This document shows positions 24,807 to 63,633 of a stretch of 64,000 bases of DNA, in pieces (position 1 is the stretch's first letter; each line of letters opens with the position of its first letter). Below the pieces are notes generated by a model. That model was not told where the DNA came from and did no database searches. It saw nothing but the letters and a program-made list of their open reading frames with translations. Source of the stretch: Gemmatimonadota bacterium (lineage in GTDB: Bacteria > Gemmatimonadota > Gemmatimonadetes > Longimicrobiales > Gaopeijiaceae); the NCBI GenBank assembly GCA_029262115.1, contig JAJCZZ010000053.1, positions 62,001 to 126,000 of the forward strand, in the 5' to 3' direction. A program made the translations under genes and the position numbers.

Positions 24807-24876
24807 CGGAGCGCTGCGGGTCTTGCCGCCCCCCGGACCACCAGCCGGTTGCGTGGATCGCGGGGGCCTGCTAGAA

Positions 24877-24904
24877 TTTTAGCACGATGCTAAAAAAATA
24901 GCAC
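24877..24904. promoter_or_regulatory. BlaI-type palindromic operator
   Basis: TTTTAGCA-CGA-TGCTAAAA (24877-24895) is a perfect 8+3+8 inverted repeat, followed by a third half-site TAGCAC at 24899-24904, only 8 bp before the GTG start of the blaI-like gene. Position and symmetry fit autoregulation by the dimeric repressor encoded next. Confidence 0.72.
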
Positions 24905-24911
24905 TGGAGGG

Positions 24912-25313
24912 GTGGTGAACGGAGCGAGAGTGGGGGCAGGCGGGGATCTCAGCCGGCGAGAGCGTCAGATCATGGATGTGATCTGGCAACAGGGCACGGC
25001 AACGGCGGCCGACGTGCTGGAAGCACTGCCGGACCCGCCGAGCTATTCGGCGGTCCGTGGGTCGCTTCGTGTCCTGGTCGAGAAGGGACACGTCGAGTAC
25101 CGCCAGGACGGCCCCCGGTACGTGTACCACCCCACGACCCCGAGAGAGGAAGCCCGCGCTTCGGCGCTCAAACGGGTGCTCAACACCTTCTTCGACGACT
25201 CGCCCGAGAAGGTGATGGCCGCCTTGCTCGATCTGTCGTCGGGGTCGTTGTCGGACGACGAGTTGGCGCGGTTGGAGGATCGGATCCGGGAAGCCAGGGA
25301 GGAGGGACGATGA
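24912..25313 (+). CDS. BlaI/MecI/CopY-family transcriptional repressor
   Basis: 133 residues from GTG 24912, preceded by GGAGGGG. The winged helix is clear: LSRRERQIMDVIWQQGTATA, SYSAVRGSLRVLVEKGHVEY and RYVYHPTTPREEA. The C-terminal helix (FDDSPEKVMAALLDL, SDDELARLEDRIREA) is the dimerisation and proteolysis region. In the known BlaI/BlaR1 and MecI/MecR1 systems a partner M56 protease relieves repression by cleaving the repressor; the partner gene here overlaps the stop codon. The operator at 24877 suggests self-repression. No beta-lactamase gene is nearby, so the signal is probably not an antibiotic. Confidence 0.92.
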   Translation: MVNGARVGAGGDLSRRERQIMDVIWQQGTATAADVLEALPDPPSYSAVRGSLRVLVEKGHVEYRQDGPRYVYHPTTPREEARASALKRVLNTFFDDSPEKVMAALLDLSSGSLSDDELARLEDRIREAREEGR

Positions 25314-28111
25314 TGACCGGCGCGGTGATGGTGGGGCTCAAGGGGATGGTCGCTCTGACGGCGGCGGGCGGCCTGGCCGCTCTCCTCCAACACGCGCCTG
25401 CGTCCAGGCGCCACATGGTGTGGGCGGGGGGGCTGGGGGCGTTGCTCCTGCTCCCGGTCCTCCAGTGGGGCGGGCCGAAGTGGGACGTGCGAGTGCCCGG
25501 GAGCCAGGCGGTGGCCCGGGCAGTGGCGACCGCTCCTTCCACGCGGCGGTCACCGACGGCGTCGGTAACCGTCGGTGGCTCGCGGGCGATGGACGCGGCG
25601 CTGCGAGGAACGGCGGCGCTGGGGTCTGCTCGTCAGGGCGAGGGGGGGCCGCGCACGACGCTACCCGCCTCGCCCACGGAGGGCGATCCTGCCGCGCCAC
25701 GGACGCGCGACGTACGGACCCCCGGGGACACGGACGGGTCTGTCGGCGCGGCCGGCACGCCGCCGAGCGCCCCTGCTACCGGAGCGCAACGTGGCAGCCT
25801 TGCGAGCGAAATGCCGGCTGGCTCGCTCGCGACTGGAGCGCCGGCGGGTTCGCTCATGACACGAACGCTGTCGCGCGCGGTGGCGTCGGTGTTGGGGTGG
25901 CTCTGGCTGATCGGGATCGCCCTCCTGAGCATCCGTTTGGTCCGGAGCTACCGGGCTGCGTCCGTCCTCGCCCGTTCAGGGACGATGGCACGGCGAGCGG
26001 TTCAGGCGCGCGCGACCGAGCTGTCTCGCCACCTGGGTGCCGGTGCCACCGCCACTGTGCGCATCCACCCCTCGGTGGCCGTGCCCCTCGTGGTCGGGCT
26101 CCGTCGGCCGGTCATCCTCCTTCCGCGCGATGCTGAAAAATGGTCCCAGGCCACGCTGGACCACGTCCTGCTGCACGAGTTGGCCCACGTGGCCCGCCGT
26201 GATCCGTGGCTCCACGCCATGGCGGATGCGGCCCGTGCCCTGCACTGGCCCAACCCGTTGGCGTGGGCTGCCGTTCGCCGCCTCCGCCTCGAAAGCGAGC
26301 GCGCGTGCGACGACCGCGTCCTCGAGGCTGGACGCGCGCCGTCGCGGTATGCCGAGGACCTGCTCAGGGTAGCCCGCGCGCTCGGTGCCGCGCCCGCCCC
26401 GCCACGGGCGGCCGCCGCCATGGCCCGCACGCCGGATCTGGCCCGGCGGCTCGATGCGATCCTGGACGTGGATCGGGCGCGGCAGCCGGCGGGTCGACGG
26501 GCTCTCGCGGCCACGGGCGTGGTGATGCTCATCGCCGCGATCGGTCTCGGCGGGGCGACGCCGGCGCCGCCCTCCGCCGCGGCGGACACGGAGACGACTG
26601 AGAGTGGCTCGGTCGTCGTGGACGTACGCGTGCCGGGAGTGGCCGAGGTACCCGAGACAGCACCGCGGAGGGTGGCGGATCCGGTGGCCTCACTCCGAGA
26701 ACCGCTTGCGCGGAGCCTGTCCGAGTCCGGGCCGTCGCCGTACGCCGAGCCGAGTGTGCCGACAGGGCCGGCTGGTCTACCGGGTACGACCGTTCGCCGT
26801 CAGGAATCCGCACTTCTGTGCGGATTCGTCGATCGGGACGGCGGTCGCTCGACGCGCATCCACATCGACGACGACCGCTTTGAAATCCAGATCGAGCAGC
26901 GTGACTGCCGGGTGGAGGTCGAGGCGCGCGGCGATATCCGCTTCTCCGACGACGATCGTAGCATCGTCGCTCTCGGTGACGATGCCTACTTCGAAATCGA
27001 GGAGCGCGACCGGACGCGCGAGCGGCGCGTGCGGATCCGCCCCGACGACGCAGGTGGGGTGGAGCGCCGGTGGTGGGTGGACGGTGAGCGCCGCGAGTGG
27101 GGAGCCGACGCGGATGCATGGCTTGCCACCGTGCTCCCGGTCCTGTTCCAGGAGACCACTTTCAACGCCCGCGCTCGTGTTCAGCGCATGCTGGACGAGG
27201 GCGGCGTCGACCGTGTGCTGGACGCGACCGAGACCATGCACTCCGGGGCCGTTGCGCGGCGATACGTTGAACTCGCCGTGGAGTTGGGGCGGGTTTCCGA
27301 GGCTCAGGCGATTCGCATCATGGGCATCGCCGGCCGGATGGAGGGCGACCACCACAAGGCCTCGCTTCTGAGCGCCATGGCCCGGGCGCACGGCCTTGGA
27401 ACGCGGAGACTCCAGGAACCGTTCCTCGAGGCCGCGCTTTCGATCGGGGCGGATCACCACGTCCGCAATGTCCTGGAGGTGTTGCTCGACCAGCCCGGGC
27501 TGACCGACCCGCAGTGGGACGCCGTCGTGCGCGCAGCCGGGCGGATCGAGGCGGACCACCACACCGCCGCGCTCCTCAAGGGTGTCGTGGCGTCGGGCGG
27601 CCCGGGCGTGTCGGGTCGCGCCAGCTTCCTGGAGGCCCTTCGCTCGATCGATGCGGACCACCACCAACGGAACGTCCTGGAGGCCTTCCTCGATCAGGGC
27701 CGGGTGTCACCGGAAGAGATCAGCCAGATCCTTTCGCTCTCCGGTGAGATCGGAGCTGACCACCACCGTGCGTCCATCCTCCAACAGATCGCCGACCGGT
27801 ACTCTTTGGACGGTGAGCCTTTGGACGCCTTCGTCCGCACCGCCCGCGGAATCGAAGCGGACCACCACCTTCGGTCGGTGGTCGAGAGGCTGTTGGGGAG
27901 GGATGAACTGTCTCCTGCCCAGGTGGACGCCGTCCTCGACATGGTCGAGCGCGTCGGAGCGGACCACCACCGGCTCGCCCTCCTGGAGCCGCTGGCTCAA
28001 CGTCACGCGCTCACCGGTGCCCAACGCGAGCGGTATGTGTGGCTGGCCGAGCAGATGTCGCGGCGGAGAAGCGATCAGGCCTTGGCGGTCCTGGCCCGGA
28101 CCAGCGGCTGA
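25310..28111 (+). CDS. M56 (BlaR1-like) membrane metallopeptidase with seven ADHH repeats
   Basis: 933 residues, much longer than typical BlaR1. Helices near 1-50, 180-215 and about 400 anchor it. A Ser/Thr/Pro/Ala-rich low-complexity linker fills about 70-180. The M56 zinc site is HELAH at residues 289-293, with ESERACDDRVL downstream. After the last helix the extracytoplasmic part has a charged all-beta segment (about 500-610) and then seven helical repeats of exactly 34-35 residues, each starting [GED]ADHH, with the Asp at residues 680, 715, 749, 783, 817, 851 and 885. There is no penicillin-binding sensor domain; the repeats probably form the sensor or a protein-binding solenoid. Coupled to the repressor gene by overlap. 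Confidence 0.88.
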   Translation: MMTGAVMVGLKGMVALTAAGGLAALLQHAPASRRHMVWAGGLGALLLLPVLQWGGPKWDVRVPGSQAVARAVATAPSTRRSPTASVTVGGSRAMDAALRGTAALGSARQGEGGPRTTLPASPTEGDPAAPRTRDVRTPGDTDGSVGAAGTPPSAPATGAQRGSLASEMPAGSLATGAPAGSLMTRTLSRAVASVLGWLWLIGIALLSIRLVRSYRAASVLARSGTMARRAVQARATELSRHLGAGATATVRIHPSVAVPLVVGLRRPVILLPRDAEKWSQATLDHVLLHELAHVARRDPWLHAMADAARALHWPNPLAWAAVRRLRLESERACDDRVLEAGRAPSRYAEDLLRVARALGAAPAPPRAAAAMARTPDLARRLDAILDVDRARQPAGRRALAATGVVMLIAAIGLGGATPAPPSAAADTETTESGSVVVDVRVPGVAEVPETAPRRVADPVASLREPLARSLSESGPSPYAEPSVPTGPAGLPGTTVRRQESALLCGFVDRDGGRSTRIHIDDDRFEIQIEQRDCRVEVEARGDIRFSDDDRSIVALGDDAYFEIEERDRTRERRVRIRPDDAGGVERRWWVDGERREWGADADAWLATVLPVLFQETTFNARARVQRMLDEGGVDRVLDATETMHSGAVARRYVELAVELGRVSEAQAIRIMGIAGRMEGDHHKASLLSAMARAHGLGTRRLQEPFLEAALSIGADHHVRNVLEVLLDQPGLTDPQWDAVVRAAGRIEADHHTAALLKGVVASGGPGVSGRASFLEALRSIDADHHQRNVLEAFLDQGRVSPEEISQILSLSGEIGADHHRASILQQIADRYSLDGEPLDAFVRTARGIEADHHLRSVVERLLGRDELSPAQVDAVLDMVERVGADHHRLALLEPLAQRHALTGAQRERYVWLAEQMSRRRSDQALAVLARTSG
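27341..28063 (+). repeat. Seven in-frame 102-bp repeats encoding ADHH units
   Basis: The GAC-CAC-CAC core recurs every 102 bp (105 bp for the first interval) inside the M56 gene. Units alternate between two types: odd units read DHH[KTR]xxLL or DHHRxxIL, even units read DHH[VQL]RxV[LV]E. The architecture is therefore a 68-residue super-repeat. Confidence 0.85.
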
Positions 28112-28235
28112 GGGCACGGATCGAACCCGCCACTGCCGCCTGACTCCGACACGCGATCGTCGCCTGGCTTGGGCGCTCCACCCACGTTGAGCACGGCGAA
28201 GCCTCGTCGTCTCCGGTAGCGCAGACTCGCACCAT

Positions 28236-28310
28236 TTGACACTAAACAGTGTTACCTCCCGTAGGACTCCAGAGATTGACGTCCTGCGGGGGTGTGTTTA
28301 CAGTGTTCAC
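28236..28310. promoter_or_regulatory. Promoter and TetR operator candidates before the efflux operon
   Basis: The 200-bp gap 28112-28311 holds ACACT-AAAC-AGTGT (28239-28252), an inverted repeat overlapping a perfect TTGACA (28236-28241). The half-site ACAGTGTT recurs at 28246-28253 and 28300-28307. TTGACG (28276-28281) and TACAGT (28299-28304) are 17 bp apart and make a good promoter whose -10 overlaps the second site. Binding by the TetR protein encoded next would block transcription of the operon. Confidence 0.55.
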
Positions 28311-28311
28311 C

Positions 28312-28950
28312 ATGTCAGATCAACGAGAAAAGATCCTTTCCTGCGCATGTGAGCTCTACCTGAACGACGGCCTCGACGGGTTTTCGATGCGAAAGCTCGC
28401 TCGCAGCGTCGGCGTCACCGCGCCCGCCCTGTACCGCCATTATGAGAGCAAGGAGCACGTGCTCATCGATGTGGTACGCGAGGCGTACCGGGAGTTCACG
28501 GGCTTCCTCTATCGAGCGTTGGAGGGCCGGACGCCCGAAGAGCGACTGGCCAAGGCCGGGGACGGCTATATCGAGTTCGGCCTCCGGCATCCGCGCTGGT
28601 ACCGCATCGTGTTCACGGCCGCTGACCGTCTCGGGCTGGACGAACTCCCTGCTGACGTCGAAGCCCAGGGTTGCGCGATCCACCAGTTCTGGGTCGACCG
28701 CCTCCGCGAGTGCATGGATGCCGGGCTGCTGCGTCGGGGCGACCCCGCGGCGATCGGGATGACCATCTGGGCCCACTCCCACGGGCTCATCACCCTGTAC
28801 CACAACGGGCACTTCCAGACCGACGAGGAGGGGTTCTGCTCCTTGTGCGATGCCTCGTGGCAGCGGCTGCTGGAGGGGGTCGCAACCGACGAGTACATCG
28901 GGGATCTGAAGCGGCGCGACTTCGCGTCGGTCACCGCGGGTTCGACCTGA
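28312..28950 (+). CDS. TetR/AcrR-family transcriptional regulator of the RND operon
   Basis: 212 residues from ATG 28312. The N-terminal helix-turn-helix is intact: ILSCACELYLNDGLDGFSMRK up to VTAPALYRHYESKEHVLIDVV. The ligand domain (about 60-200) carries GLRHPRWYRIVFTAAD and HSHGLITLYHNG, typical of TetR_C regulators of efflux genes. It is the first gene of a run in the same direction with TolC, adaptor and RND genes, so it very likely controls the pump, with an unknown drug, bile-like or lipid ligand. Confidence 0.9.
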   Translation: MSDQREKILSCACELYLNDGLDGFSMRKLARSVGVTAPALYRHYESKEHVLIDVVREAYREFTGFLYRALEGRTPEERLAKAGDGYIEFGLRHPRWYRIVFTAADRLGLDELPADVEAQGCAIHQFWVDRLRECMDAGLLRRGDPAAIGMTIWAHSHGLITLYHNGHFQTDEEGFCSLCDASWQRLLEGVATDEYIGDLKRRDFASVTAGST

Positions 28951-28988
28951 ACCATGTCTACAGTGCATTTCAGAGGACGATAGACGGG

Positions 28989-30497
28989 ATGACGATGATA
29001 CGAATGGCTCGCTCCTTGTTCGGGCTGGGCTCCTGGAGACGGGCACTGATCCTGGCGGGGGCCGTCGCGCTGACGTTGCTGTTCGCCTCGGCCGGACTGG
29101 TGTCGGGACAAAACGTGCGCACCCTCGGCCTCGACGAGGCCGTACGGACCGCGCTCGACCGCAGTCGCGATGTCCGTTCGGCCCATCTCGGCCTGGAGGA
29201 GGCGAACGAGCGCGTCTCGGAGGCCTGGAGCAACGTGTACCCCTCGCTGGACTTCAACGCGAGCTACACGCGCAATCTCTCGCCCGCCGTGAACTTCCTT
29301 CCGGCGGCGATCTTCGATCCGACCGCCGGCCCGGACGACTTCATCCCGGTTCAGTTCGGTGCGGACAACCAATGGACCACGACCATCTCGCTGGAGCAGC
29401 CGCTGTTTTCGGCGGGCGCGTTCATCGGGGTCGGCGCGGCTGGCCGCTTCCAGACGCTGCAGGAAGAAGTGGTCCGTGGGCTGACGCAGAGCGTGGTGAC
29501 ACGCGTTCGCTCCGGCTACTACGGGCTCCTGCTGGCCCAGGAGCAAGCGCGGCTGACGGAGAACTCGCTGGAGCGGGTCCGTAAGACGCTGAAGGAGACG
29601 ACCGCTCTGAACAAAGCGGGGCTGACGTCCGACTATGACGTGCTCCGCCTGGAGGTCGAGGCAGCCAATCTCGAACCGAACCTCCGTCGGGCGGAGAACG
29701 CGGTGCGCCAGGCTCGCCGCGATCTGGCGGTGGAGTTGGATCTACCGCCGGGTGAAGAAGTCCGGGTGGAGGGCTCGCTGGCATCCATCAACCTGCAGGA
29801 CCCATCCGACAACACGCCCGCCAACCGGGAAATCCTGTCGTTCATCGGGTTCAGGGGCGTCGGGATGGAGGTGGTCGACGAGGCCGTCGGCATGGCCACC
29901 GAACTGCGATCCGACCTCCGTCAGTTGGAGTTGACCGAGTCGCTTCGCAAGACGGAGATGCGGTTGGAGCAAGTCGAGTATCTCCCGCGCGTCTCGCTCT
30001 TCGGCACCTACTTGATTTCGGCGCAGGACAACGGGAGCCCGAGCTTCTTCGGTCGGGGCGATGGCCAGCGCGCGTACTCTCGCAACGTCGGTGTTCAGGT
30101 GACCGTGCCGATCTTCCAAGGCTTTCGACGCGACGCACGTATCGATCAGAAGCGCGCGGTCCTCCGTCAGGCCGAGACACAGACGCGTCTCGCCACCGAT
30201 CAGGCCCGGAGTCAGGTGCGCACGCTGTTGGAACAGGCCGAAGAAGCGCTCTTGCGGGCGCGGGGCCAGTCGCTGGCCGTTCGGCAGGCCAGCCGGGGCT
30301 TTGCGATCGCCCGGGCGCAGTACAGCGAAGGGCTCGGGAGTCAGTTGGAGGTGACGGACGCCGAGGTGGCGCTCCGACAGAGTGAGTTCAACTACGCGCA
30401 GGCGGTCTACGACTATCTGATCGCTCGCGCCCAACTCGATGAGGCCACAGGGCGGGTCCCGATGGTCGATGTCGATACGGACGGGATGGGAGCATGA
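28989..30497 (+). CDS. TolC-family outer-membrane efflux channel
   Basis: 502 residues from ATG 28989 (MTMIRMARS; nearby ATGs at 28995 and 29004 are alternatives) with a signal peptide ending VSGQ. Two OEP repeats are visible: AVRTALDRSRDVRSAHLGLEEAN with YPSLDFNASYTRNL, and ELRSDLRQLELTESLRK with YLPRVSLFGTYL. Strand segments ISLEQPLFSAGAF and VTVPIFQGF precede the long helices, as in TolC/OprM. It forms the exit duct of the pump encoded by the next two genes and overlaps the adaptor gene by 4 bp. Confidence 0.92.
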   Translation: MTMIRMARSLFGLGSWRRALILAGAVALTLLFASAGLVSGQNVRTLGLDEAVRTALDRSRDVRSAHLGLEEANERVSEAWSNVYPSLDFNASYTRNLSPAVNFLPAAIFDPTAGPDDFIPVQFGADNQWTTTISLEQPLFSAGAFIGVGAAGRFQTLQEEVVRGLTQSVVTRVRSGYYGLLLAQEQARLTENSLERVRKTLKETTALNKAGLTSDYDVLRLEVEAANLEPNLRRAENAVRQARRDLAVELDLPPGEEVRVEGSLASINLQDPSDNTPANREILSFIGFRGVGMEVVDEAVGMATELRSDLRQLELTESLRKTEMRLEQVEYLPRVSLFGTYLISAQDNGSPSFFGRGDGQRAYSRNVGVQVTVPIFQGFRRDARIDQKRAVLRQAETQTRLATDQARSQVRTLLEQAEEALLRARGQSLAVRQASRGFAIARAQYSEGLGSQLEVTDAEVALRQSEFNYAQAVYDYLIARAQLDEATGRVPMVDVDTDGMGA

Positions 30498-31615
30498 AGA
30501 CCAATACGGTAAGGAGCATCATGGGACGGCAGTCGAGATATCGGGTGGGTGTACTGGGCTTGGCGCTACTGGCGTCCGCGTGCGGCGGACCGACCGAGGA
30601 CGCCGGCGCGGGGGACGGTGTCCCTGAAGCCGAGGCAGGTGCTCCGGCAGCCTTTGCGCGCATTATCAACGTGGAGGTGAGGCCGGTCGAAACGCGCGCT
30701 TTCGCCGAGCAGATCCGTCTGACGGGCGTCGTCTGGGCCAGCCGGGATGTTCAGGTATCCGCGGAGGAGACCGGCGTCATCCGTGAGATCGTCGTGGACC
30801 GTGGTCGCCGCGTGTCGGCAGGTCAGCCGCTGTTCCGGATCGACTCCAGCGTGCTTCGGGCACAGGTGGCCCAGGCACGCGCGCAGGCCGACTTGGCCGA
30901 GCAGACCTGGGAACGCCGGCGCCGCCTCTACGAGCAGGATCAGGTCGGCTCCGAGCTCGCGTACCTGGAGGCGCGGTCCATGGCCCAGCAGACGGCCGCC
31001 AACCTCCAGTCGTTGGAGGCGCGGTTGGCTCGCACGACCATCCGCGCGCCCTTCGCAGGCATCATGGACGAGCGCATGGTGGAGCTCGGCACTCTGGTAT
31101 CGTCCGGACAGGTGGTGGCTCGCATCGTCGACCTGAGCACGGTCAAGGTGGTTGCGGGTGTCCCGGAGCGGTACGCGGCCGACGTTCGCCCGGGCGGGGA
31201 GGCGACCGTCCTCTTCGACGTGCTGACGGGCGAGGAGTACCCGACGACCATCCACTACGTGGGGTCGACAGTGAATCCGCAGACTCGATCATTCCCCATC
31301 GAAATCCGGATGGGGAACCCGGGCGGTCTGGTCAAGCCGGAGATGGTATCGAACATCCTGGTGAAGCGGAACTCGCTCACGGAGGCCGTCGTGGTCCCGC
31401 AGGACGCGCTCGTTCGAGTCGAAGAAGGCTACGTGGTCTTCGTCGCGGAGGAGTCGGCTGCAGGTCCTGTGGCGAGGGTGCGCCCGGTGGTTCTCGGTGC
31501 GCGTCAGAACGACGAAGTGGTGATCGAGGCGGGGCTCGACCCGGCCGATCGACTGATCGTGGTTGGACAGAAGTCCGTTGCGGATGGTGATCGCATCAAC
31601 GTGGTAGTCAACTGA
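30494..31615 (+). CDS. RND efflux periplasmic adaptor (membrane-fusion) lipoprotein
   Basis: 373 residues; the lipobox LLASAC puts the lipidated Cys at residue 30. Lipoyl halves flank a helical hairpin: VSAEETGVIREIVVDRGRRV, then a short hairpin (about 115-175), then TTIRAPFAGIMDERMVELG. The beta-barrel and membrane-proximal domains follow (VVVPQDALVRVEEGYVVFV). It bridges the RND permease in the inner membrane to the TolC channel. ATGA overlap with the channel gene and a 43-bp gap to the permease gene show one operon. Confidence 0.92.
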   Translation: MKTNTVRSIMGRQSRYRVGVLGLALLASACGGPTEDAGAGDGVPEAEAGAPAAFARIINVEVRPVETRAFAEQIRLTGVVWASRDVQVSAEETGVIREIVVDRGRRVSAGQPLFRIDSSVLRAQVAQARAQADLAEQTWERRRRLYEQDQVGSELAYLEARSMAQQTAANLQSLEARLARTTIRAPFAGIMDERMVELGTLVSSGQVVARIVDLSTVKVVAGVPERYAADVRPGGEATVLFDVLTGEEYPTTIHYVGSTVNPQTRSFPIEIRMGNPGGLVKPEMVSNILVKRNSLTEAVVVPQDALVRVEEGYVVFVAEESAAGPVARVRPVVLGARQNDEVVIEAGLDPADRLIVVGQKSVADGDRINVVVN

Positions 31616-31658
31616 CGACTTCGAAGACCGGGCGCGGGCGCGCTCAGAGGCGAATCAA

Positions 31659-34600
31659 ATGAGCGGTACAGAACGGAACGGAAGTGCCCCCGACGGGCCC
31701 CCCGACGACGGTGGGAAGCGGCGGTACAGAGAGTTCGGGCCCACGAGCTTTGCGATCGCCCACAAGACCAGCGTGGTGATGTTGTTGGTGATCATCACCC
31801 TGCTCGGACTCGTCTCCTACCGGGCGACCCCCAAGGAGTCGTTCCCGGAATTGGCCATCCCGATCATCGCGGTCAACACGATCTACCCGGGCGTATCTCC
31901 GGCGGACGTGGAGACGCAGATCACGAGGGTGATCGAGGAAGACCTCAGCACCATCAGCGACATCAAGGAGCTGACGTCGACCTCCGTGGAGGGGTACTCG
32001 AGCATCGTGGCTGAGTTCGCCCCGTCCGTGAACCTCGACGACGCGCTCGCGAAGGTCCGCGAGAAGGTCGATCTCGCGAAGCCGGATCTACCGGATGACG
32101 CCGAAGAGCCGACGATCGTCGAGTTCAACTTCTCCGAGATCCCGATCCTTCAAGTCAACCTGTCCGGTGAGTACGGGCTGGTGCGGCTCAAGGAACTGGG
32201 TGAGGAGCTACAGGACCGCCTCGAGCAGATTCCCGCCGTCCTGCGTGCCGATCTGCGCGGTGGTCTCGAGCGCGAGGTCAGCGTCGACGTCGACCTGACC
32301 AAGATGCAGTACTACGGGCTGTCGCTCACCGACATCGTAGACGCGATCCGGGACGAGAACGTGAACATTCCCGGGGGTTCGATCGATGTGGGGGACTCGA
32401 AGTATCTGCTCCGCGTCGACGGTGAGTTCGATGATCCCGCCGTCATTGGCGACCTGGTCGTGAAGGTGCGGGAGGGGCGGCCCGTGTACGTGCGTGACGT
32501 CGCCTCGGTCGACTTCGGCTTCGCGGAGCGGGACAGCTACGCCCGGATGAACGGCGACGCAGTGGTCACCCTCGACGTCATCAAGCGCGCGGGGGCCAAC
32601 ATCATCGCGACATCGGCGTTGGTGAATGAGGTGCTCGCGGACATGGAGCCGCTTCTTCCGAAGACGACTCGGGTCGAGATCACCTCGGACCAGACCGAGC
32701 AGATCGAGGACATGGTGTCGAGTCTCGAGAACAACATCATCTCTGGGCTCGTCCTCATCGTCGGAGTGCTGCTGTTCTTCCTCGGCCTGGCCAACTCGAT
32801 GTTCGTGGCCGTGTCGATCCCATCTTCGATGTTTCTGTCGTTCATCGTCCTGAAGTTGCTCGGCGTCTCGATGAACATGGTGGTGTTGTTCAGCCTGATT
32901 CTGGCGCTGGGCATGCTGGTCGACAACGCGATCGTCGTGGTGGAAAACATCTACCGGTTCCTCGAAGAGGGCTGGGACAGGGAGACGGCGGCGCGGAAGG
33001 CCACGGGCGAGGTCGCGGTGCCGATCATTGCCGCGACGGCCACGACGCTCGCGGCGTTCGCTCCTTTGCTGTTCTGGCCGGGAGAGGTCGGGGAGTTCAT
33101 GGGCTATATGCCCAAGACGCTGATGGTCACGCTGACCAGTTCGCTGTTCGTGGCGCTCATCATCGTCCCGACGCTGTGCGCCATGTTCATGAAGCTCGAT
33201 GGCACGCCGTCGCGCCCGATGACCCGCGCCATGCGCTGGACCTTGATCGGGGTGGCGGCGCTGACGCTTCTGATCGTCGCGGGCCTGAACCCACTGACTG
33301 CGGTCCTACTGGCGGCGACGGGAGCCATTCTGTGGTTCCTCCACACCCGGCTGTTCGAGCGCGCGGGCCGCGCGTTCCAGGACCGCACGCTGCCGGCCGT
33401 GGTCGATCGTACCTACGAGCCGACCCTCCGGTGGGCGCTGGGTCATCGCGCCGTGCTGCTGGCCATGACGGTGGTCGCGTTCATCGGCACGTTCATGCTG
33501 TTCGGCGCCTTCAATGCCGGAATCGAGTACTTCCCGGAGTCGATGCCGCCGGCTCAGTTGATCGTGGACGTCGAGGCACCGGTCGGGACTCGGGCGGAGG
33601 TCACCGACTCGGTCGTCCGGCGGATCGAGCGGGCGCTTCCGTCCTTCGAGGGCACGCAGGACTGGGAATCGGTGGTGGCTGTAGCGGGGGGTGGCGGGGG
33701 TGGCGGTAACCCGATGGGCGGCGGTCCGGGCGGCCCGGAGGCTGGTCGCGTCACGATCTCCCTGATCGACTTCCAGGACCGTTCGGCGGACGCCTTCACT
33801 ACGCTGGCCACCATGCAGGCGAGCCTCGGCAGCGACATCGCGGGCGCCGAAGTGACGGTCGACAAGCCGGCAGAGGGTCCCGCCCAGGGCGCCCCGGTCA
33901 GCATCGAGATCGTCGGTGAGGATCCCGACGTCCTCGAGGAGCTGTCCGATCGTGTTCTGTCCGTACTGCGCGCCGCGCCGGTCTACGCCCGACTCGTCGG
34001 TCTGGAGAGTGATCTCGACGCGGCACGGCCGGAACTGTCGATCCGTGTGGACCGTGAAAAGGCGGCGCTCTACGACCTCAACACCATGAAGGTCGGGCAG
34101 GCCATCCGTGGCGCGATCAACGGGATCGAGGCCGCGAAGTACCGCACCGGGAACGACGAATACGACATCGTGGTCCGACTGGACCAGCGCTACCGCCAGG
34201 AGCTCGAAGGACTGCGCGACCTGGCCGTCATGGCCGAGGGGGGCATTCAGGTGCCGCTCGTCTCAGTCGCCGATTGGAGCGTCGAGGACGGGTACGGCTC
34301 GATCAAGCGGAAGGACCAGGAGCGGATGGCCACCATCAGCGCCGACGTGGCGGCTGGCATCAACTCGAATGCGGTCCTGGCCGAGGTTCAAGCCACCCTG
34401 GTCGACTTTCAGAATGGTCTGCCGCCCGGCTACAAGATGCAGTACGCAGGGCAGTCGCAGGACCAGGCCGAAGCGCAGGCGTTCCTGGGCGGCGCGTTCC
34501 TCACGGCGTTGCTGTTGATCGGGTTCATTCTGATCAGCCAGTTCAACTCGGTCGTGAAGCCGGTCATCATCCTGACCAGCGTCATCATGTCGACGATGGG

Positions 34601-35195
34601 CGTCCTGCTCGGGTTGATGATCTTCCGGATGCCGTTCGGAATCATCAACACGGGTGTCGGCATCATTTCACTCGCTGGCATCGTGGTGAACAACGCCATC
34701 ATCCTCATCGATTACATCGACGTGTTGCGAGAGCGCGACGGAATGAATCGGCGCGAAGCTCTGATTCAGGGCGGCAAGACGCGTTTCCGCCCGGTGGTCC
34801 TGACGGCGATGACCACGGCGCTCGGGCTGGTCCCGCTGTCGATTGGAATGAACTTCGACTTCTTCGGTCTGTACGGTTCGTTGAACCCCGAGCTGTACTG
34901 GGGTGGAGAGCAGGCGGCGTGGTGGGGGCCGATGGCCGTGGCCATCATCGCGGGCATCCTGTTCGCGACCTTCCTGACGCTCGTGCTGGTGCCGGTCATG
35001 TATTCGCTGGTGGACGATGCGACGGCCTTCTTCAAGAAATACTACGTGGCCCATGACGACGAAGACGAAGAGCGTACGGCCGAGGCGCCGGCGTACGAGG
35101 CGCCGCCGGCACCCGTCCGCGTGCCCGAGCCGGCCGGCGTGTCGCGTTCGAGGAGCGACGGGGGAGGCTTCGGCCTCGCGCCGGAGCGAGGTTGA
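31659..35195 (+). CDS. RND-family efflux permease (HAE1/AcrB type)
   Basis: 1178 residues, longer than AcrB (1049). The TM4 proton-relay motif reads LVDNAIVVVENI near residue 418 (AcrB has LVDDAIVVVEN), and TM10 has VVNNAIILIDYIDV. Porter domains carry IEEDLSTISDIKELTSTS and EYFPESMPPAQLIV. Oddities: two extra hydrophobic segments between the usual TM6 and TM7 (about 525-565), a glycine-rich run (about 676-694) in the periplasmic second half, and a Pro/Glu-rich cytoplasmic tail. Substrate range is unknown, but the class exports drugs, detergents or lipids using the proton gradient. Confidence 0.93.
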   Translation: MSGTERNGSAPDGPPDDGGKRRYREFGPTSFAIAHKTSVVMLLVIITLLGLVSYRATPKESFPELAIPIIAVNTIYPGVSPADVETQITRVIEEDLSTISDIKELTSTSVEGYSSIVAEFAPSVNLDDALAKVREKVDLAKPDLPDDAEEPTIVEFNFSEIPILQVNLSGEYGLVRLKELGEELQDRLEQIPAVLRADLRGGLEREVSVDVDLTKMQYYGLSLTDIVDAIRDENVNIPGGSIDVGDSKYLLRVDGEFDDPAVIGDLVVKVREGRPVYVRDVASVDFGFAERDSYARMNGDAVVTLDVIKRAGANIIATSALVNEVLADMEPLLPKTTRVEITSDQTEQIEDMVSSLENNIISGLVLIVGVLLFFLGLANSMFVAVSIPSSMFLSFIVLKLLGVSMNMVVLFSLILALGMLVDNAIVVVENIYRFLEEGWDRETAARKATGEVAVPIIAATATTLAAFAPLLFWPGEVGEFMGYMPKTLMVTLTSSLFVALIIVPTLCAMFMKLDGTPSRPMTRAMRWTLIGVAALTLLIVAGLNPLTAVLLAATGAILWFLHTRLFERAGRAFQDRTLPAVVDRTYEPTLRWALGHRAVLLAMTVVAFIGTFMLFGAFNAGIEYFPESMPPAQLIVDVEAPVGTRAEVTDSVVRRIERALPSFEGTQDWESVVAVAGGGGGGGNPMGGGPGGPEAGRVTISLIDFQDRSADAFTTLATMQASLGSDIAGAEVTVDKPAEGPAQGAPVSIEIVGEDPDVLEELSDRVLSVLRAAPVYARLVGLESDLDAARPELSIRVDREKAALYDLNTMKVGQAIRGAINGIEAAKYRTGNDEYDIVVRLDQRYRQELEGLRDLAVMAEGGIQVPLVSVADWSVEDGYGSIKRKDQERMATISADVAAGINSNAVLAEVQATLVDFQNGLPPGYKMQYAGQSQDQAEAQAFLGGAFLTALLLIGFILISQFNSVVKPVIILTSVIMSTMGVLLGLMIFRMPFGIINTGVGIISLAGIVVNNAIILIDYIDVLRERDGMNRREALIQGGKTRFRPVVLTAMTTALGLVPLSIGMNFDFFGLYGSLNPELYWGGEQAAWWGPMAVAIIAGILFATFLTLVLVPVMYSLVDDATAFFKKYYVAHDDEDEERTAEAPAYEAPPAPVRVPEPAGVSRSRSDGGGFGLAPERG

Positions 35196-59160: not shown

Positions 59161-59541
59161 ATGGGAGACGTTTCGTTTACGGACCGGGAACTGGACGTGA
59201 TGGCGGTACTCTGGGAGTGCGGACCTTCGACGGTGGCCGATGTGCGGGATCGTCTCACCGATCCGTTGGCGTACACGACGGTCCTGACGATCCTGCGTAC
59301 GCTGGAAGACAAGGGGCACGTGGGGCACGAGGAGGAGGGGCGCGCGTACCGGTATCACGCGCTTGTCGAACAGGGCGAGGCGCAGGGCAGCGCGCTCGAC
59401 CACCTCACCAGGAAGCTGTTCGCGGGGTCGACCGAGCTCCTCATGACCCACCTCGTTGCGGACCGCGAGCTGTCGGACGACGAGCTCGCCCGCATTCGCC
59501 GTTTGCTCGACGAACGCCTTGGCTCGGGAGGGGATACGTGA
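59161..59541 (+). CDS. BlaI/MecI-family repressor, second copy
   Basis: 126 residues, shaped like the repressor at 24912 but only distantly similar. Winged helix FTDRELDVMAVLWECGPSTVA, LAYTTVLTILRTLEDKGHVGH and YRYHALVEQGEAQ; the C-terminal helix (GSTELLMTHLVADRELSDDEL) is the dimerisation region. The downstream M56 peptidase gene overlaps by 4 bp (GTGA), the normal sensor-repressor arrangement. Confidence 0.91.
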   Translation: MGDVSFTDRELDVMAVLWECGPSTVADVRDRLTDPLAYTTVLTILRTLEDKGHVGHEEEGRAYRYHALVEQGEAQGSALDHLTRKLFAGSTELLMTHLVADRELSDDELARIRRLLDERLGSGGDT

Positions 59542-60518
59542 TCGGAGTGTGGATGGTCTACTGCGTGGCGCTCGGTGTTCTGATCGCGGGTGCTGCGCTC
59601 CTGGCCGAGCGGGCCGCGCTGTGCCTTCGGGTCTCCACACGGCGCATCTGGGCGCTCGCGATCACCCTCGGAGTCGCGTTTCCCGTGGTGGGTGTGATTC
59701 TGCGCTCGTCCGACCTTCCGGAGGAGGTGCTCTTCGCCGAATCGGCGGCCGTCGTCTCTCCGGTCGGGGGCCTCCTGGTGCAAAGCGTGGAGTCGCTGTC
59801 CACCCTGGACACGCCCCTCCTCGATGCGTGGTCGGTCGCGACGCTGCTCCTGGTGATGGGCTTTCTGGTTGCGGCTGCCGCGACGGGCATCCGGCGGCGC
59901 GGGTGGGCCAAGGACACGGTGGACGGCGTCCCGGTCCTGCTCTCGGACGAGGTCGGACCGGGGGTGGTCGGGGTGGTGCAGAGCAGGGTGGTCTTGCCTC
60001 GGTGGGCGCTCGACGGCGACGCCCGTGAGCGTTCGATCATCCTGAGACACGAAGTCGAGCACCTGTCCGGCGGCGACCCACAACTCGTTCTGTTTGGCAC
60101 GGTCATGGCGATGCTCATGCCGTGGAACCTGCCGCTCTGGTACATGCTCCGCCGACTCCGGCTGGCCGTCGAGGTGGACTGCGATGCGCGTGTGCTTCGC
60201 GGCGGGGACACCGACGTCGGCCACTACGGCCACCTGTTGCTCGCGGTGGGTGGAAGGCGCGGACGACGGGCCTGGCCCGTGACGGCGTTTTCGAGGCCGC
60301 GTTCGGCGCTGCACCACCGGATCGATCGGATGACCCGCCCGCCATCTCCCTATGCGCGGCTCCGGGCCGCCAGTCTCGTCGCTGCCGTCGCAGGCCTGAT
60401 CCTGTCCGCCTGGTTCCTCCCGCAACCGGTGCGTGCGGCCGATTCGACCTGGATCCTCGCTCCATGCCCGGTGGACTTCAGCGCCCCGGTCGACGTCCAC
60501 GACTCGGATATGGCGTGA
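59538..60518 (+). CDS. M56 membrane metallopeptidase, short form
   Basis: 326 residues from GTG 59538. Helices near 5-25, 37-55, 95-115 and a last one near 285-300. The zinc motif is HEVEH at residues 171-175 (ILRHEVEHLSGGD) with AVEVDCDARVLRGG supplying the third ligand. The protein ends about 20 residues after the last helix (RAADSTWILAPC), so there is essentially no sensor domain, in contrast to the ADHH-repeat version. Signal perception must occur in the membrane or through another protein. Confidence 0.87.
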   Translation: MIGVWMVYCVALGVLIAGAALLAERAALCLRVSTRRIWALAITLGVAFPVVGVILRSSDLPEEVLFAESAAVVSPVGGLLVQSVESLSTLDTPLLDAWSVATLLLVMGFLVAAAATGIRRRGWAKDTVDGVPVLLSDEVGPGVVGVVQSRVVLPRWALDGDARERSIILRHEVEHLSGGDPQLVLFGTVMAMLMPWNLPLWYMLRRLRLAVEVDCDARVLRGGDTDVGHYGHLLLAVGGRRGRRAWPVTAFSRPRSALHHRIDRMTRPPSPYARLRAASLVAAVAGLILSAWFLPQPVRAADSTWILAPCPVDFSAPVDVHDSDMA

Positions 60519-60803
60519 CCGGAAGGTGTCCGATTTTGGGACGAGACGTCCCGCGAGCGGAGCTTTCGACCGTGTCGGCGGTAGGCGGTAATCTTACGTA
60601 ACACATTTCAGAGAAAGAAGTTACGGAACCGATATCTCGCTGGCACGCTCCTTCCCTTCTCTAGGGGTGATGACAAGACGAGTGATGTCCGGCCGGAGGG
60701 ATGGGTGACGAGGGGTGGATGGGTCAGTGATCAGCCCGCTGGCTCCGGTCGGGCAGCTTCGCTTGCGAGAGTGAGTTCACCGATTCGACAGGGTGATAGG
60801 TCC
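60519..60803. promoter_or_regulatory. Leader region of the export operon with TTACGTAA sites
   Basis: 285 bp without a gene. TTACGTAA (60594-60601, palindromic) and TTACGGAA (60621-60628) lie 27 bp apart in an AT-richer stretch, plausible regulator half-sites. A GGGACG-AGA-CGTCCC hairpin at 60538-60552 follows the M56 gene. No clear -35/-10 pair. Confidence 0.4.
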
Positions 60804-62336
60804 GTGAGAAACGATTCAGTCGCCATCGACCGCCAACAGCACGTGGGACGCGCCGTCGCAGGAGCCCTGACGCTTCTGGCTCTGGCAGCGACCACGCTGG
60901 TCGGTCAGCAGATTTCCGAAACGCTCACGTTCGAAGAGGCGCTGCGGGTGGCCCGGGACAACAACCCGGTGTTCCAGTCGACCCGCAATGACCGTCCGGC
61001 CGCGGACTGGCAGGTTCGCGAGGCGTACTCGGCCTTTCTGCCGACCGCGAGCGCAAACTCGAGCCTGACCTACCTCGAGGGGGGCGCGCAGCGCTTCGGG
61101 ACCGTGGATCTCGGCGTGTCGGGCACGGACTACTATCAGTCGTTCTACAGCCTGAGCTTCAACTGGCAGTTGAACGGAAACACGATCTTCGGCCTTCCGG
61201 CGGCGCGCGCGAATCAGCGGGCTACGGACGCCCGGATCGACGCATCGCAGTTCAACCTCGAATCCCAGGTCGCCCTCGCGTACATGACGGTGCTGCGGGC
61301 TCGGGACGGGGTCGACGTGGCGCAGCGCCAGTTGGACCGGGCGCTTCAGAATCGGCGCATCGTGACCAGTCGCGTCACTTCGGGTGCCGCCGCCGGGACC
61401 GACGGCAAGCAGGCCGAGGTCGACGAAGGACGCGCCGAAGTCGGCGTGATCCAGGCGCGACGCCAGTACCGTGAGTCGATGGCTCTGTTGGCCGAGGCGC
61501 TCGGTGTGACGCTCGACGAGGACGTGACGCTCGCCAGCGAGTTCGACGTCTTCGAGCCGGAGTGGAGCCGCGAGTCTCTCATGAAGATGGCGCTCAGCAG
61601 CCATCCCTCCCTGCGTTCGTTCGCCGCCCAGGAGCAGGCGGCGAGTGCGACGGCGCGGCAGGCGGCGAGTCAGTACTTTCCGTCCCTCTCGATCAACAGC
61701 AGCTTCCGTGGAGTGACGCAGGAGGCCACCAACCGGGACTTCGTCGTTAGTGAGGCGCAAGAGTTCTGGGAGAACCGTGTCTCGAACTGCGAGTTCCAGA
61801 ACGCGCTGATTCAAGGCGTGCCGACTCTGGGTGGGGATCTCAACGACTGCTCAGAGTTCGCGTTCACCGACGAGCGCAGGGTGGCCGCACTAGCCGACAA
61901 CAGCGTGTTTCCGTTCAGTTACACCAAGCTGCCGTTCCAGGCGTCGCTCCAGGTGTCGATCCCGATCTTCACCGGCTTCACCCGCCAGCGGCAGGTGTCG
62001 CAGGCGAACAACCAGGCCGAGGACGCGAAGTACAACCTGCGTGCCGAGGAGTTGCGTCTTCGCACCGCCGTCACGCAGTCGTACGACAACCTCGCCGCCG
62101 CGTATCAGGTGGTTCAGCTCGAACAGCGCAACCGCAGCTTGGCCGAGGAGCAGCTCCAGATGCAACAGCGTCGGTATGCGCTGGGTGCCGGGGGGATGTT
62201 GGAGCTCCTGGACGCTCAGACGACGCTGAGCACCGCCGAGCAGGCGTACCTCAACGCCGTGTACGACTTTCACCTGAACCTGATTCGTCTGGAAGCCGCC
62301 GTGGGCCAGGGCCTGCGTGCCGAGCGTCAGCCGTAA
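60804..62336 (+). CDS. TolC-family outer-membrane protein of an ABC export system
   Basis: About 510 residues from GTG 60804; a signal peptide (VGRAVAGALTLLALAATTLVGQ) follows a short leader. Two OEP halves: TFEEALRVARDNNPVFQSTR with FLPTASANSSLTYL, and SLMKMALSSHPSLRSFAAQEQ with YFPSLSINSSF; strand VSIPIFTGF and the end QAYLNAVYDFHLNLIRLEAAVG match TolC. A Cys pair (SNCEFQ, NDCSEF) lies in an insert in the second half. Outer-membrane duct for the adaptor and ATPase encoded next. Confidence 0.9.
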   Translation: MRNDSVAIDRQQHVGRAVAGALTLLALAATTLVGQQISETLTFEEALRVARDNNPVFQSTRNDRPAADWQVREAYSAFLPTASANSSLTYLEGGAQRFGTVDLGVSGTDYYQSFYSLSFNWQLNGNTIFGLPAARANQRATDARIDASQFNLESQVALAYMTVLRARDGVDVAQRQLDRALQNRRIVTSRVTSGAAAGTDGKQAEVDEGRAEVGVIQARRQYRESMALLAEALGVTLDEDVTLASEFDVFEPEWSRESLMKMALSSHPSLRSFAAQEQAASATARQAASQYFPSLSINSSFRGVTQEATNRDFVVSEAQEFWENRVSNCEFQNALIQGVPTLGGDLNDCSEFAFTDERRVAALADNSVFPFSYTKLPFQASLQVSIPIFTGFTRQRQVSQANNQAEDAKYNLRAEELRLRTAVTQSYDNLAAAYQVVQLEQRNRSLAEEQLQMQQRRYALGAGGMLELLDAQTTLSTAEQAYLNAVYDFHLNLIRLEAAVGQGLRAERQP

Positions 62337-62367
62337 GCCGCACCTTCACTCCTTAGAGGACTGATTC

Positions 62368-63633
62368 GTGGATATCATTCGCGATACCAAGCCGCAGAAG
62401 AAGAAAAAAAAGATCCTCTGGACCGGCCTGGCCCTCGGTGCGCTGACGATCATCACGGTCGGCATCAAGAGCCTGCCGTCGGCGGCGCCGTCGGTCGACG
62501 CCGCCACCGTGTGGATGGACACGGTCCAACGGGGCACCATGGTGCGCCAGGTCCGCGGGCCGGGGACGCTGATTCCCGAGCAGACGCGGTGGATTACGGC
62601 CGTGACGCCCGGACGGATCGAGCAGATCATGTCGCTGCCCGGCACGCCGGTGGCCCAGGGCGACATGATCATGCGTATGAGCAATCCGGACGTGGACATG
62701 CAGTTGCTCACCGCGCGTCAGCAGCTCTCCGCCGCCCAGGCGCAGTTGGCGCAGCTTCGGACCAGCCTGCGGACACAGGAGCTGACGCAGCGCGGGGTCG
62801 TGGTCACCACACAGGCGCAGTTCAACGACGCCAGGCGCGTGTATGAAGCGAATCGGCAACTGTCGGAGGAGAACCCCGACCTGGTCGCGCGGGACGAACT
62901 TACGCGGACGCGCGAAGTCATGGAGGAGATGCAGACCCGTCTCGAGATCGAGGAGGATCGCCTTCAGGTCATGCGATCCACGTCGCAGGAGCAGTTGGAC
63001 GCGCAGACCGAGCAGATTTCCCGGCTCCAGGAGATGGTGCGCTTCAACCAGGACCGGTTGAACTCGATGCAGGTTTCGGTTCCGGTGGCAGGTGTGCTTG
63101 CGCCGCTGGACATCCCGCTCCAGGAAGGGCAGTGGGTCCAGTCCGGACAGCAGCTGTCCCGTGTGGTCGTGCCCGGCCGGCTCAAGGCGGAGATCCGCAT
63201 TCCGCAGACGCAGGCGCAGGACGTGGTCGTCGGTCAGCAGGCACTGATCGATACGCGGACCGACACGATCATGGGTCAGGTGACCCGGATCGATCCCGCC
63301 GTTCGGAACGGGACGGTGACGATCGACGTGACGCTTCCCGACAACTTGCCGCCGTCGGCTCGTCCGGATCTGAGCGTGGACGGTAACGTGATCATCGAGC
63401 GCCTCGATGACGTCGTGTACGTCGGCCGGCCCACCTTCGGTCAGGCCAACGCGCAGGTGAGCATCTTCAAGCTGGTCGAGGACGGGCAGTACGCCGAGCG
63501 GATCACCATCCGCCTTGGGGCCTCCTCCGTGAACGAGATGGAAGTGCGCGAGGGTCTCCAGCCCGGAGACATCGTGATCCTGTCGGACATGTCGCAGTGG
63601 GACGGTTTCGACCGGGTGAAGCTCAGGAACTGA
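62368..63633 (+). CDS. Periplasmic adaptor of a MacAB-like ABC exporter
   Basis: 421 residues from GTG 62368. A lysine run (KPQKKKKKILW) and one helix anchor it in the inner membrane. A lipoyl half (RIEQIMSLPGTPVAQGDMI) is followed by a very long coiled-coil hairpin (about 105-230, rich in Gln and Glu), the second lipoyl half (VSVPVAGVLAPLDIPLQEGQ) and beta-barrel domains. A long hairpin is typical of MacA/HlyD-type adaptors that reach a TolC protein. Between the channel and ATPase genes of one operon. Confidence 0.88.
   Translation: MDIIRDTKPQKKKKKILWTGLALGALTIITVGIKSLPSAAPSVDAATVWMDTVQRGTMVRQVRGPGTLIPEQTRWITAVTPGRIEQIMSLPGTPVAQGDMIMRMSNPDVDMQLLTARQQLSAAQAQLAQLRTSLRTQELTQRGVVVTTQAQFNDARRVYEANRQLSEENPDLVARDELTRTREVMEEMQTRLEIEEDRLQVMRSTSQEQLDAQTEQISRLQEMVRFNQDRLNSMQVSVPVAGVLAPLDIPLQEGQWVQSGQQLSRVVVPGRLKAEIRIPQTQAQDVVVGQQALIDTRTDTIMGQVTRIDPAVRNGTVTIDVTLPDNLPPSARPDLSVDGNVIIERLDDVVYVGRPTFGQANAQVSIFKLVEDGQYAERITIRLGASSVNEMEVREGLQPGDIVILSDMSQWDGFDRVKLRN

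Follow-up and report, generated by a model that had tools for sequence, protein, structure and literature searches.

A BlaI–M56 protease pair of Gemmatimonadota with a beta domain and a uniform-loop helical solenoid in place of the penicillin-binding sensor

The 64,000-nucleotide stretch of DNA analysed here (the window) includes a gene for a 933-aa M56 sensor protease, P0001 (25310–28111, from the ORF and Pfam; all coordinates are window positions on the forward strand unless stated otherwise), whose system was recognized as a new variant of the BlaR1 type with an apparently undescribed sensor. The putative sensor is composed of a beta domain and a helical-hairpin solenoid, and the loop of the solenoid units is nearly identical throughout one protein, unlike between proteins. 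On balance we consider it probable that P0001 is a BlaR1-type signalling metalloprotease in which periplasmic beta and solenoid domains stand in the place of the sensor, and in which a ligand lying along the loop edge would lead to BlaI cleavage and induction of the operon. In this little-studied phylum, the BlaR1 signalling chassis would then operate with a very different kind of sensor.

The blaI-like repressor gene (24912–25313, 133 aa) matched PF03965 with an E-value of 5.5e-28, and its stop codon and the M56 start overlap. The M56 peptidase domain covers residues 187–384 of P0001 (25868–26461; PF05569, E 8.6e-33) and its zinc-protease motifs are intact, H289ELAH293 together with the ExxxD motif E330RACD334. 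The combination of gluzincin HExxH and ExxxD is the signature reported for BlaR1 (PMC9834060). Pfam searches did not find a penicillin-binding/transpeptidase sensor domain in P0001, and the NCBIfam model blaR1_generic gave a score of 74 against a cut-off of 400. Judged from its sequence, P0001 is thus an intact M56 protease encoded directly after blaI and lacking a penicillin-binding sensor. Hydropathy analysis indicated three clear membrane helices, the second falling below the threshold, and four in the homologues; the last predicted helix covers residues 398–416 (26501–26557). Proteins of the BlaR1/MecR1 type have four membrane helices with both termini outside, and cleave BlaI as well as themselves. 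The present system resembles BlaR1/MecR1–BlaI/MecI in having an M56 domain with both motifs, an adjacent BlaI-family repressor and an operator over the promoter, and also the C-terminal sensor of P0001 is expected to be extracytoplasmic. Unlike in those systems, the sensor is a beta domain with a helical solenoid, the operator is TGCTA-N6-TAGCA, and a long low-complexity stretch separates membrane helices 2 and 3.

Ahead of the blaI-like gene, a promoter-like TTGCGT-N17-TAGAAT (24849–24877) was found, with TTGACA or a similar hexamer at the equivalent place in several homologues. Its −10 element lies inside the first of two dyads, TGCTAGAATTTTAGCA (24869–24884), and the second, TGCTAAAAAAATAGCA (24888–24903), follows 3 bp past the first. 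These dyads form a putative operator at the repressor's own promoter, over the −10 element, and similar tandem dyads are present ahead of most homologous blaI genes. A Penicillinase_R domain combined with putative dyads at the own promoter is shared with the BlaI/MecI/CopY repressors. The adjacent repressor and operator reported in an earlier sequence-only reading of this DNA were therefore confirmed by the PF03965 match and by the two dyads over the −10 element, which are kept in homologues. No exact TGCTA-N6-TAGCA beyond these two was detected in the 5.45 Mb assembly, so the circuit is predicted to be mainly autoregulatory and the blaI–M56 operon is thus its only clear candidate target. Genes for a TetR-OEP-HlyD-RND efflux system follow downstream (28312–35195) and are a possible second output. 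The region ahead of tetR (28200–28311) contains possible TetR-type palindromes, TTGACACTAAACAGTGTTACC and TTTACAGTGTTCACC, so that the efflux genes may be controlled separately. A second BlaI–M56 pair is located at 59161–63630; its M56 protein is about 300 aa long and has no repeats, and OEP and HlyD efflux genes come directly after it.

The solenoid covers residues 599–933 (27104–28108) as delimited by the AlphaFold model and a unit HMM, and includes seven DHH units with a cap unit at either end. The DHH motifs are at residues 680 (27347–27355), 715 (27452–27460), 749 (27554–27562), 783 (27656–27664), 817 (27758–27766), 851 (27860–27868) and 885 (27962–27970), exactly as first noticed from the sequence, and P0001 includes no further DHH. 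In 20,000 shuffles of residues 641–933 the mean number of DHH was 0.06 and the maximum three, against the seven observed. The regular spacing described earlier was borne out, the successive distances being 35, 34, 34, 34, 34 and 34 residues, as was the alternation of two sub-types (38% identity between units of the same parity, 26% between those of opposite parity), which is apparently old because the homologues have it too. The repeats had been described as ADHH units; DHH is present in all seven, with unit 1 reading EGDHH instead. Degenerate cap units flank the repeats near residues 645 and 919.

The same reading placed the repeats right after the last membrane helix, which did not hold, since a linker and a beta domain (residues 513–596; 26846–27097) intervene. 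The beta domain was recognized in AlphaFold models with pLDDT 87.6 and 84.8. It contains Cys533 and is preceded by Cys504, and both columns are invariant in the aligned homologues. Structure prediction, which had been proposed as a check, gave a solenoid fold for the C-terminal part of P0001: with three homologues as alignment, AlphaFold modelled the beta domain, followed as far as the C-terminus by a helical-hairpin solenoid (pLDDT 87.6, pTM 0.77), in which every DHH opens the second helix of a hairpin. Searches of Pfam, NCBIfam and PDB sequences found no family model for either the beta domain or the solenoid. The beta domain had no fold match at E ≤ 0.001, and the solenoid had weak Foldseek matches to generic alpha solenoids only (best TM about 0.4). 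It is like HEAT/TPR-type alpha solenoids in being a generic two-helix solenoid, but unlike them it exceeded the cut-off of no Pfam repeat family. The 34-residue two-helix unit with a variable inter-helix loop also resembles TAL effector repeats, and a weak profile match to the TAL structure 3ugm was obtained (E 9e-5). In contrast to TAL, the loop of P0001 is uniform within the protein and expected to be outside the cytoplasm, with no sign of DNA binding. There was no Pfam TAL match and no TAL structure among the best 50 Foldseek matches, and the TAL relationship, a single weak profile match unsupported by the fold search, was rejected and the likeness taken as convergence.

Comparison with the homologues showed that the usual loop of the family is S-D-x-E, of which ADHH is one variant. 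The loop reads ADHH in P0001, SDHY in L014 and L041, SDHE in L022, SDFE in L021, SDYE in L023, SDGD in L047, SDME in L036 and SSSS in L028, and only the Asp, which opens the second helix, is widely kept. The uniformity was analysed in 23 proteins over a 35-column unit, the expectation being obtained by exchanging units between proteins. A clear departure from the expectation was present in columns 16–25 only and was strong in columns 17–21 and 24, while the flanks were not homogenised. In column 20, identity was 0.76 within proteins and 0.17 between them (z about 25). Eleven held-out proteins replicated the result (0.90 within, 0.17 between, z 22), confirming columns 17, 20, 21 and 24, with columns 18 and 19 near-invariant in this set. 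On the M56-domain tree, which is poorly resolved (14 of the 23 inner branches open, the row of L032 without a clear loop), at least 12 changes of the majority residue were counted for column 20. The pattern is in keeping with selection that has switched the loop of whole proteins repeatedly. Exceptions with an alternating or mixed loop were found in some proteins (L020, L048).

A pattern of this kind looks like concerted evolution, the usual cause of which is gene conversion, and the loop might have been homogenised in each lineage by conversion or by recent expansion of units, without functional selection. This explanation is hardly credible here and was rejected on flank, unit-pairing and synonymous-codon evidence. 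The flanks show no within-protein excess. The units can be paired one to one between species and genera, with a flank identity of 0.53 between orthologous units against 0.24 otherwise, so that in paired units the flanks follow the orthologous unit and the loop follows the protein. The synonymous codons used in the loop show no greater likeness within proteins than between them, a question which P0001 alone cannot settle because its His is always CAC. Selection that keeps the edge ladder uniform gives the best fit, and gene conversion does not explain it; a concerted loop change over seven to ten old and individually diverged units, with silent codons unhomogenised, is a clear mark of selected uniformity in a repeat protein. 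The chief rival is a packing constraint between neighbouring units, in which positions 17, 20, 21 and 24 of each unit pack against the next and force matched changes with no ligand involved. We regard it as possible, if somewhat doubtful. The homogenised columns do cluster in a single patch where helix B begins, and S-D-x-E resembles a helix capping box, but successive units of L020 alternate between H and Y/F and L080 has a mixture of Y, F and H, so adjacent units need not match, and the residues Gly, His, Met, Thr and Tyr found at one position have no common packing chemistry.

The 21 Asp and His residues had earlier been suggested to bind metal. As a conserved site and family function this was rejected: homologues of the same architecture replace the His pair in all units together (DHY, DYE, DFE, DGD, DME, SSSS), and it is because the full loops vary (SDHY, SDYE, SDFE, SDGD, SDME, SSSS) that such a site is unsupported. 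The narrower reading that the seven DHH loops of P0001 itself bind Zn, Cu or Ni and that the circuit senses metal appears quite improbable. All seven units have two His and one Asp each, genes of an RND-type efflux system are located downstream, and the copper sensor CopY is related to MecI and BlaI (PMC5772342). Against it, the closest relative has DHY, no sign of metal export by the RND pump was seen here, and the intervening tetR gene has its own upstream region. That the downstream TetR-OEP-HlyD-RND locus is the main output, with the M56 pair as an envelope-stress sensor, is compatible with ligand sensing by the solenoid, but unlikely. The efflux genes come directly after the M56 gene and the second BlaI–M56 pair of the window likewise precedes OEP and HlyD genes; however, exact operators are found ahead of blaI only, about 200 bp intervene, as does a separate regulator, and the neighbours of the homologues vary (DUF5916, M1 peptidase, DUF2911).

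For ligand sensing by the solenoid, we infer a periplasmic location, ligand binding, BlaI cleavage and derepression. A periplasmic ligand or partner would bind along the edge of the solenoid, on which the loop (A-D-H-H in P0001) recurs from unit to unit, and the binding would alter the membrane-embedded M56 protease. The protease would then cleave the BlaI-like repressor, which would leave the two TGCTA-N6-TAGCA dyads so that the blaI–M56 operon is induced. The conserved Cys pair and the signal-peptide-like N-termini of standalone module copies point to an extracytoplasmic place of the sensor. Against ligand sensing stand the alternating or mixed loops of L020 and L048, the relatives with other tails than the solenoid and the poor resolution of the M56 tree. 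The BlaI/M56 pair (lacking a penicillin-binding domain), the solenoid and the operator together supply the parts of the signal–proteolysis–derepression circuit postulated in the sequence-only reading, its sensing step remaining conjectural. It is uncommon for a loop to change protein-wide, and this points to a repetitive target beyond the inner membrane; from the uniform ladder, the ligand may be expected to have numerous equivalent sites, as in a polymer or a protein array. As a tentative extension, which we hold to be rather doubtful, the residue after S-D could be a protein-wide specificity code, by which the solenoid edge would read a repetitive extracytoplasmic ligand and all units would switch together upon a change of ligand. 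What requires identical loops throughout a protein is the question raised by these data, and among the present results the concerted loop most deserves to be pursued. The sensor module, the operator and the operon partners are now named and hence open to experiment.

The solenoid module was present as a single copy in its own genome, and the whole module was found in two others among the 96 sampled genomes of the host family. Across the phylum, the module or the beta domain was detected in 45 of 298 genomes. A broader profile matched 81 of 395 sampled genomes, in 38 of 138 genera, many with the solenoid as well and many of the weaker matches being to the beta domain alone. The first contig scan, with the solenoid as query, gave no match; the second, with the query A3, found three loci, two from Gemmatimonadota/Gemmatimonadales and one from an uncultured bacterium, these searches covering mainly Gemmatimonadota. 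No relative was found in viral contigs. The literature search found nothing describing a module of beta domain and solenoid, and the family is apparently undescribed and widespread.

The architecture varies within the family. L015 and L016 include BlaI, M56 and the beta domain but another tail than the solenoid, which is therefore seen as an exchangeable part. It had been held earlier that homologues without the repeats but with a fully functioning sensor pair would speak against the sensing role; of these two points, the absence of repeats is the one found, in L015 and L016. The tail of the L015 protein (L015:2866–5445) has 15-residue repeats of the HRGHVAALRG type and a coiled-coil-like end instead. 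In L047, L048, L049, L051, L052 and L055, a predicted secreted, protease-free copy of the module adjoins the M56 gene, the standalone copies having signal-peptide-like N-termini. The loops of the M56 protein and the neighbouring secreted copy match in L055, in the others mostly not. A DUF5916/CBM9-like gene is located nearby downstream in L047, L048, L051 and L055, and other neighbours of homologues include an M1 peptidase (L058) and DUF2911 (L014). The M56 proteins L048:10509–13691 (reverse strand) and L049:5970–8177 have the solenoid ahead of the beta domain, the order of the modules therefore being switched. In L032, the C-terminal extension of the M56 protein resembles by eye an N-acetylmuramoyl-L-alanine amidase domain, which may be a hint of a cell-wall signal.
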